This document shows, in pieces, positions 18,486 through 28,774 of a stretch of DNA of 40,392 nucleotides. The stretch is from an uncultured SAR116 cluster alpha proteobacterium (lineage in GTDB: Bacteria > Pseudomonadota > Alphaproteobacteria > Puniceispirillales > Marisalimonadaceae), in NCBI GenBank assembly GCA_902618195.1, contig CACMZO010000010.1, positions 1 through 40,392 of the forward strand. The letters run 5' to 3'. Below the pieces are notes generated by a model. The model was not told where the DNA came from. It did not search any database and saw nothing but the letters and a program-made list of their open reading frames with translations. Made by a program: the position numbers and the translations under genes. Position 1 is the stretch's first letter. Every line of letters starts with the position of its first letter.

Positions 18486-19559
18486 TTACTCTTCTGTATT
18501 TTTTTCTTCAGAAACCTCTGGGTTCATCATAATATTATCAACTAATCCAGAGTTACTTCTAATTTTATTTTCTATTTCCAATGCAGTATCTGGATTATCT
18601 TTTAAATACTTTTTTGCATTTTCCTTACCTTGACCAATTCTTTGATCATTGTAAGAGAACCATGCACCAGCCTTATCGATAATTTCTGCTGCAACACCTA
18701 AATCTATAAGTTCTCCATGTTTTGAAATTCCCTCTCCGTACATAATGTCAAATTCTACAGTTCTAAAGGGAGGTGCAACTTTGTTTTTAACAACTTTAAC
18801 TCTTGTTTGATTTCCAACTATTTCATCCTTATCTTTTATAGCTCCAATTCTTCTTATATCGAGTCTTACAGATGAATAAAATTTTAAAGCATTTCCACCT
18901 GCTGTAGTTTCAGGACTTCCGAACATAACACCAATCTTTAACCTAATTTGATTTATGAATATAACTAGACAATTAGATTTAGATATTGATGAAGTAAGTT
19001 TTCGTAATGCTTGACTCATTAATCGAGCTTGAAGCCCAACATGTGTATCACCCATATCCCCCTCTAATTCAGCTCTTGGTACTAAAGCAGCAACCGAGTC
19101 TATAACCATTACTGATATAGCGCCTGATCTAACTAATGTATCAGCAATCTCTAATGCTTGTTCACCAGCATCAGGTTGTGAGATAAGTAATTCATCAATA
19201 TTTACACCCAATTTTTTAGCATAAACGGGATCTAAGGCATGTTCTGCATCTACAAAAGCACAGGAACCCCCTTGCTTTTGTGCTTCAGCAATAGCATGAA
19301 GAGCTAAAGTCGTCTTACCAGAACTTTCTGGACCATAAATCTCAATTATTCTACCTTTCGGAAAACCACCTATTCCAAGGGCAATATCTAACCCTAGTGA
19401 TCCTGTAGAAATTGATTGAATATCAATATTTTGATCATTTTCTCCTAATTTCATTACAGAACCTTTACCAAAGTTCTTTTCAATTTGTGAAATTGCACCT
19501 TCTAGTGCTAAATTTTTATTCTCATTATCCATGGAAAATTCAAGTACCTCAGCATTCAT
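18486..19559 (-). CDS. recA: Recombinase RecA
   Basis: RecA forms the strand-exchange filament and, when bound to single-stranded DNA, triggers LexA self-cleavage. The 357-residue protein has Walker [10 protein letters not shown] at 76-84, [20 protein letters not shown] (L1 region), and the L2 region [19 protein letters not shown]. It ends in an acidic tail. The ATG at 19559 is chosen over the internal Met at residue 10 because AGGAG lies 7 bases upstream. It is driven by a near-consensus promoter flanked and overlapped by GTTC-N7-GTTC type LexA boxes, so SOS induction is expected. Confidence 0.97.
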
Positions 19560-19588: not shown

Positions 19589-19617
19589 ATAATATTCATG
19601 TTTTGTTCTTAAGTCAA
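19589..19617 (-). promoter_or_regulatory. recA sigma70-type promoter
   Basis: On the minus strand the -35 element TTGACT (complement of 19612-19617) and the -10 element TATTAT (complement of 19589-19594) are separated by exactly 17 bases. Each matches the consensus at five of six positions. The predicted start is near 19582, about 22 bases before the recA ATG, followed by AGGAG at 19567-19571. Confidence 0.7.
19594..19608 (-). promoter_or_regulatory. Second, degenerate LexA-type box inside the recA promoter
   Basis: The minus strand reads GAAC-AAAACAT-GAAT, one mismatch from GAAC-N7-GAAC. It lies between the -35 and -10 elements, a position where a repressor would block polymerase. Its centre is 29 bases from the perfect box at 19623-19637. 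Confidence 0.5.
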
Positions 19618-19622
19618 CAAAT

Positions 19623-19637
19623 GTTCACATTTTGTTC
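19623..19637 (-). promoter_or_regulatory. LexA (SOS) box upstream of recA
   Basis: GTTC-ACATTTT-GTTC on the plus strand (GAAC-N7-GAAC on the minus strand) is a perfect match to the alphaproteobacterial LexA direct-repeat operator. It lies just upstream of the recA -35 element and 3 bases beyond the dksA stop codon. Confidence 0.75.
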
Positions 19638-19640
19638 TTT

Positions 19641-20120
19641 TTAATCGTCTTTATGAATTTTTTCCATTTTTTCATGCCTTTCTTGAGCATCCAAACATAA
19701 GGATGCTATTGGCCTTGCTATTAATCTTTTAATACCAATAGGCTCATCTGTTTCTTCACAGTAACCGTAAGTACCTAAATCAATTCTTCTCAAAGCAGAG
19801 TCAATTTTACTAATTAATTTTCTTTCTCTATCTCTAGTACGTAATTGAATAGCAGCATTACTTTCAACTTGAGCTCTATCAGCAATATCAGGTCTCTGCA
19901 ATCCATCTTCAGATAGATCATCTTTAGTATCTGAAGCCTCATTTAATAACTCTTTTTTCCATATCAAAAGTTTTTGTCTAAAAAACTCTAAATGATTTTC
20001 ATTCATATATTCTTCAATGTCTGTAGGCACATAATTTTCAGGAAGTACAAGTCTAGATCCTTGAATGCCAGATTTATTTGAAGATTCATTGTTTATTTTA
20101 TTTTTATCTATAGAATTCAT
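19641..20120 (-). CDS. dksA: DksA/TraR-family RNA polymerase-binding factor
   Basis: DksA enters the polymerase secondary channel and, with ppGpp, represses stable RNA promoters. The 159-residue protein has a long coiled coil with a tip carrying DIADRA, the DxxDxA motif. The zinc-finger region is YGYCEETDEPI to SLCLDAQERHE, so only two of the four usual cysteines remain, as in other alphaproteobacterial DksA proteins. The start is backed by AAGGTG. It is transcribed toward recA, but recA has its own promoter directly after the dksA stop. hemA is divergent, 125 bases away. Confidence 0.9.
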   Translation of the reverse strand: MNSIDKNKINNESSNKSGIQGSRLVLPENYVPTDIEEYMNENHLEFFRQKLLIWKKELLNEASDTKDDLSEDGLQRPDIADRAQVESNAAIQLRTRDRERKLISKIDSALRRIDLGTYGYCEETDEPIGIKRLIARPIASLCLDAQERHEKMEKIHKDD

Positions 20121-27838: not shown

Positions 27839-28774
27839 CTATTTAAATATTTGAATTACACCAACTATCTTTTCATCATTATTTTTTACAACTAATGATT
27901 GTAATCTGGCCTCTTTCATTCTCTCGTGAGCAACTTGTAAGTTATCATTCTCATATGCCGTCATAGGTGATTTATTTAAAATATCTTTTATTTCTATTTT
28001 AGTAAAATCATCTGACATTAATAAAGATCTTCTAAGATCACCATCTGTTATAATGCCTTCAAGTTTTTCTTCATTTCCAATTAATGCTAATCCTAATCTA
28101 CTTTCTGTCATTTTTAGAACAACTTCTTTCGTAGTTCCATTTTTGTTCACAAAAGGTAAATTTTGAGTAATCATTTCGTCCTTAACACTCAACAACAATC
28201 TTCTACCCAAAGATCCACCAGGATGAGTTAATGCAAAGTCCTCTTGTTTAAAGTTTTTTAAATTCATTAAAGAAACAGCTAAAGCATCACCAATTATTAA
28301 AGTTGTTAAAGTTGATGTAGTTGGAGCCAAATTTAATGGACAAGCTTCTTTATCTACAGATATATTTAAAACGATGTCTGAATTTTTTGCTAGATTAGAA
28401 TTTAATTCACCTGTCATTGCAATTATTTTTACTTTCAATCTCTTTAATGCAGGTAAAAGTGCTAAAATCTCATCAGTTTCACCTGAATATGATATTAGAA
28501 TAATGATGCTTTTTGATTGAACTATACCTAAATCGCCGTGGATAGCCTCACCAGGATGCAAGAAATAACTTGGCGTTCCAGTTGATGCCAAAGTAGCAGA
28601 AATTTTTCTTCCAACTAGCCCAGATTTTCCCATTCCGCAAACAACAATATGACCATCTGAAGAAGTAATTAACTTTACAGTTTTTTCAAATTCTGCATCA
28701 AAAAGTTTTTCGAGTCTATCAATTGCATTTTTATAAGTTTTTGTTAAATTTAAAAATGTTTCTTTTATTTGCAC
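27839..28774 (-). CDS. kdsD: Arabinose-5-phosphate isomerase (KdsD/KpsF family)
   Basis: Interconverts ribulose-5-phosphate and arabinose-5-phosphate, the first step toward Kdo for lipopolysaccharide. The 311-residue protein has a SIS domain (VCGMGKSGLVGRKISATLASTGTPS, HPGEAIHGDLGIV, ISYSGETDE; about 43-190) and two CBS domains at the C-terminus (about 205-311). The initiator is GTG at 28774, with AAGG upstream. It heads the kdsD-queA-tgt-queG run. It implies that the cell makes Kdo, though no other Kdo gene lies in this window. Confidence 0.9.
   Translation of the reverse strand: MQIKETFLNLTKTYKNAIDRLEKLFDAEFEKTVKLITSSDGHIVVCGMGKSGLVGRKISATLASTGTPSYFLHPGEAIHGDLGIVQSKSIIILISYSGETDEILALLPALKRLKVKIIAMTGELNSNLAKNSDIVLNISVDKEACPLNLAPTTSTLTTLIIGDALAVSLMNLKNFKQEDFALTHPGGSLGRRLLLSVKDEMITQNLPFVNKNGTTKEVVLKMTESRLGLALIGNEEKLEGIITDGDLRRSLLMSDDFTKIEIKDILNKSPMTAYENDNLQVAHERMKEARLQSLVVKNNDEKIVGVIQIFK

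Follow-up and report, generated by a model that had tools for sequence, protein, structure and literature searches.

In Caulobacter crescentus, the alphaproteobacterial LexA operator has been described as the direct repeat GTTC-N7-GTTC (PMC12700426, PMC9578287, PMC3323433). Paired LexA boxes are known from Escherichia coli colicin promoters, where two LexA dimers block RNA polymerase (PMC4482635), and at the Rhodobacter sphaeroides recA promoter LexA is reported both to stimulate and to repress (Tapias et al., 2002, as cited in PMC8565304). In a literature search, no study of LexA in SAR116 was found, and a single paper mentioned the two, once each. The locus described here is very probably a recA promoter under SOS control, equipped with two LexA operators, in a SAR116-group alphaproteobacterium, and the analysis provides a record of an SOS circuit in an ocean lineage that is mostly uncultured.

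The window (the whole stretch of DNA that was analysed, 40,392 nt) contains a gap of 81 bp between the dksA stop and the recA ATG (19559, minus strand). Within this gap, a promoter of the form TTGACT / 17 / TATTAT (19617-19589, minus strand) was recognized with 10/12 matches, accompanied by two LexA-type boxes (Table 1). The starts of the two boxes lie 29 bp apart, which is 2.76 helical turns at 10.5 bp per turn. Box 1 is separated from the -35 hexamer by 5 bases, and box 2 ends in a T that also opens the -10 hexamer. A perfect GAAC-N7-GAAC box and a GAAC-N7-GAAT box, flanking and within a near-consensus promoter, had been described in the first-pass annotation, and every coordinate and spacing of that description holds. 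Its placement of the perfect box 3 bases past the dksA stop was also borne out, as exactly three bases (19640-19638) lie between the two.

Table 1. Features of the recA promoter region, with positions in the window
Feature	Position	Strand	Basis
LexA box 1, GAACAAAATGTGAAC, GAAC-N7-GAAC, 0 mismatches, upstream of -35	19623..19637	-	Pattern match; half-site columns invariant in 27 family leaders
-35 hexamer TTGACT, between both boxes	19612..19617	-	TTGAC invariant in 27 aligned family leaders
LexA box 2, GAACAAAACATGAAT, GAAC-N7-GAAT, 1 mismatch, inside promoter spacer	19594..19608	-	GAAT half-site in 30/30 family leaders
-10 hexamer TATTAT, shares one base with box 2	19589..19594	-	Promoter match
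recA, regulated gene (predicted)	18486..19559	-	Pfam PF00154, E 5e-146
dksA, upstream neighbour	19641..20120	-	Pfam PF21157 and PF01258

Leaders of the family (Marisalimonadaceae) were chosen through RecA homology alone. Both boxes with TTGAC between them were present in all 30 of these leaders, this genome's included, with a box spacing of 29 bp in 28/30 (range 28-30) and a -35 hexamer of TTGACA in 29/30. Across the 27 distinct family leaders with 29-bp spacing, 16/16 half-site columns were invariant, compared to 8/14 of the N7 columns and 2/35 of the flanking columns. The AAA after the first half-site was also invariant in the family leaders, which extends the conserved unit beyond GAAC-N7-GAAC, and the conserved operator takes the asymmetric form GAACAAAN-N3-GAAY. 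Among the congeners, recA was found at 95-99% identity in 10/12. In two leaders of another genus (L057, L065), the boxes are kept without dksA ending just upstream, and dksA is not needed as upstream neighbour for the boxes.

Beyond the family, two same-strand boxes were present in 20/20 leaders from three other families, which makes 50/50 RecA-anchored leaders for the order as a whole. Lack of conservation in relatives had been named in the first-pass annotation as a finding that would count against its reading; in both the family (30/30) and the other families (20/20), the opposite was clearly observed. In the three other families, the boxes are 30-33 bp apart, once 48 (L141), and the second half-site varies more (GAAA, GAAT, GAAC, GTAC or GATC). 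The distance from box 1 to the -35 hexamer ranges from 3 to 8 bases across all leaders compared, a variation in which no strict geometry is apparent. In some members of family f3 (L151, L153), TTGAC precedes the first box and the second one is placed further downstream; judging by this layout, these leaders look as if the recA promoter had been shifted by one box.

In order to place the arrangement within the class, an exact-layout scan of 84,980 species was used, in which 51 stretches matched. Recognizable by homology as recA leaders were 45 of these, mostly titled SAR116, while five were chance matches and one (L116) ends too soon to assign. The recA-leader matches also included three Beijerinckiaceae and one Rhabdaerophilum (L109, L110, L120, L135) with a tighter spacing of 25 bp. 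With a looser pattern, 14 of 385 genomes of the class were matched, each time before recA. For the class survey outside the order, 46 usable RecA-anchored leaders were obtained from 58 stretches. A box in the spacer position was present in 32/46, and an upstream partner box was present as well in 8/46, versus 0.4 expected by chance. This upstream box is inverted in six of the eight (L208, L211, L222, L226, L227, L229), at 19-35 bp. Given that box 2 occupies the same place in most alphaproteobacteria, it is most likely the core and ancestral site, corresponding to the common alphaproteobacterial recA operator. Box 1 is, by the same comparison, a lineage-specific addition that certain lineages have acquired and that has become fixed in this order.

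Based upon the positions of the boxes, their conservation and the presence of the motif at lexA and umuDC (described below), a mechanism can be proposed in which LexA dimers would bind the direct repeats GAACAAAN-N3-GAAY at boxes 1 and 2. With both boxes filled, RNA polymerase would be left without productive use of the promoter. RecA on single-stranded DNA would then bring about LexA self-cleavage, and recA would be induced. Box 1, as the added site, may tighten repression, or its partial occupancy may tune the promoter. That recA is repressed by LexA can be predicted with near certainty from these sequences. The assignment of LexA-type operators to recA in the first-pass annotation is strongly supported: the boxes are conserved order-wide, the motif recurs at lexA and umuDC, and congeners possess LexA.

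The one mismatch in box 2 deserves comment within this mechanism. Because the mismatched T also serves as the opening base of the -10 hexamer, GAAT rather than GAAC is probably a trade-off between contacts with LexA and with sigma, and not decay. The invariance of GAAT in 30/30 family leaders, together with the same form at lexA, argues that box 2 is a working operator rather than a weaker copy.

The wider regulon was surveyed using strict-motif pattern searches and selected stretches; weaker sites would escape such a survey, and the regulon may be larger than the one detected, which consists of recA, lexA and umuDC. The sequence GAACAAANNNNGAAY recurs at recA (twice), at lexA and at a third place in 11 genomes of the genus. 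At the third place the site is always GAACAAAACATGAAC, situated before genes for an S24 peptidase and a Y-family polymerase, identified as umuDC in the six loci that were examined. In this genome umuDC is preceded by this perfect box, and an identical 15-mer was recovered in 10/10 congeners searched (11/11 genomes of the genus). At the lexA genes of the genus a single box was found, GAACAAAAGGTGAAT, which has the GAAC-N7-GAAT form of box 2 and ends right before the ATG (L069-L075). A search for further boxes, as had been suggested in the first-pass annotation, was successful at lexA (in congeners) and at umuDC. It came back empty for the uvrA-ssb region, where no intergenic box was present in the five relatives examined, and uvrA itself was not found in this assembly. 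When imuB and dinB were sought via the IMS domain, umuC alone was found, with one match per genome.

Several observations were made alongside this survey. The lexA box of the genus directly adjoins the ATG, and its N7 part (AAAAGG) possibly serves as a ribosome-binding site as well. In other genera of the family, the usual position of the lexA box is farther upstream, with a separate AGG-type site following it. The lexA genes of family f4 (L011, L014, L015) have three to four GAAC half-sites upstream, arranged in 11-bp steps, which amounts to two or three LexA boxes that overlap. This genome has six further perfect GAAC-N7-GAAC sites, including the one at 28134-28148, which were set aside as candidates, all being within ORFs. 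The site at 28134-28148, GAACAAAAATGGAAC, also recurs among the genus genomes; the same 15-mer was present in four congeners, probably via coding conservation.

Neighbouring LexA dimers may contact each other and so bind the two boxes cooperatively, a reading that we consider possible but doubtful. It is favored by the 29-bp spacing in 28/30 family leaders and by the 30-33 bp in the order's other families, but 29 bp corresponds to 2.76 turns, not 3. Spacing also drifts among families (28-30 here versus 30-33, once 48, and 25 in Rhabdaerophilum and Beijerinckiaceae), outside the order the upstream box is inverted in 6/8 leaders at 19-35 bp, and the constant 29 may merely reflect recent descent and promoter geometry. 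The argument of the first-pass annotation, in which a separation of nearly three helical turns was taken to suggest cooperative repression, is not supported in that form, given this helical phase, the drifting spacing and the often inverted upstream box elsewhere.

LexA could also serve as an activator, with a dimer at box 1 aiding RNA polymerase when LexA is low or falling, and a filled box 2 stopping initiation. The position of box 1 immediately upstream of the -35 hexamer is typical of activators, and dual LexA activity at the Rhodobacter sphaeroides recA promoter is the finding announced in the title of a 2002 paper by Tapias et al. (cited in PMC8565304). However, the -35 hexamer is near consensus already (TTGACA in 29/30 family leaders) and would have little need of an activator, and we regard this role as rather unlikely. 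As a tentative extension of the two-operator reading, the SAR116 order may possess a fixed two-operator switch, with box 1 performing a function of its own, either activation or graded release. This switch would come on top of a reduced SOS regulon (recA, lexA and umuDC) lacking both a further Y-family polymerase and a uvrA box. With box 2 as an old fixture and box 1 fixed in the order, natural one-box and two-box promoters make the role of a second operator testable.

The presumed regulator was sought in the genome itself. The LexA DNA-binding domain was not found in this assembly (1.24 Mb, 61% complete), and the moeA-lexA stretch of a congener (in which moeA was named by eye from sequence) had no match anywhere in the assembly. 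Given that the whole lexA neighbourhood is missing too and that the assembly is 61% complete, the absence of lexA is likely an assembly gap. LexA was present in 7/12 congeners and in 24/24 near-complete relatives, with scores of about 33-35 bits in the genus versus 40-61 in other genera. Full-length LexA proteins retain the recognition stretch SKSG(I/V)HR, which reads SKSGIHR in the genus, together with the Ala-Gly site of cleavage and the catalytic residues Ser and Lys. A genome lacking lexA had been listed in the first-pass annotation among the findings that would speak against it; none was found in the assembly, a result that is uninformative at this completeness with the moeA-lexA stretch absent. 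The same annotation had stated that an SOS circuit survives in a very compact genome. The circuit is supported for the genus, and the description of the genome as very compact is overstated, with 1.24 Mb representing an assembly 61% complete and congeners reaching 1.4-2.0 Mb at 84%. The missing DNA-binding domain could be taken to mean that lexA has been lost and that another regulator, for example an S24-type paralogue, reads the boxes here; with the lexA neighbours missing as well from an assembly 61% complete, and with most congeners carrying lexA with the same box form, this is highly improbable.

Chance was evaluated by using motif counts and shuffled sequences. In the 40,392-nt window, 18 one-mismatch motifs were found versus 16.7 expected from shuffles, and genome-wide there were 8 perfect sites versus 23 for a reversed control. 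The bare motif is thus enriched in neither window nor genome, and motif counts by themselves carry little weight. Dinucleotide shuffles of the 81-bp leader yielded any perfect box in 27/20,000 and a perfect box with a same-strand partner in 2/20,000. The arrangement of the box pair is unlikely by chance, and conservation is decisive. That both boxes are chance matches in AT-rich DNA, as the equal frequency of one-mismatch matches in window and shuffles and the unenriched perfect sites might suggest, has next to no probability against the family-wide invariance, the order-wide presence, the shuffle test and the recurrence of such sites at lexA and umuDC, and is already refuted by conservation.

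The SAR116 recA promoter is a well-conserved instance of known SOS regulation and no new system, with a two-operator layout that is fixed in the clade. As at the E. coli colicin promoters, two LexA dimers are predicted to act at one promoter; the colicin sites differ in that they overlap, belong to the LexA of E. coli, regulate a colicin gene and act jointly with AsnC. The Rhodobacter sphaeroides recA promoter, which reportedly has more than one SOS box, is likewise an alphaproteobacterial recA promoter under LexA. With the Caulobacter crescentus operator, the boxes share the direct repeat, the half-site and the location at recA, and congeners encode a LexA that belongs to the same family. The boxes differ from that operator in that the SAR116 operator is longer and asymmetric (GAACAAAN-N3-GAAY), in that recA has two boxes, and in that the strict-motif regulon is small, comprising recA, lexA and umuDC.
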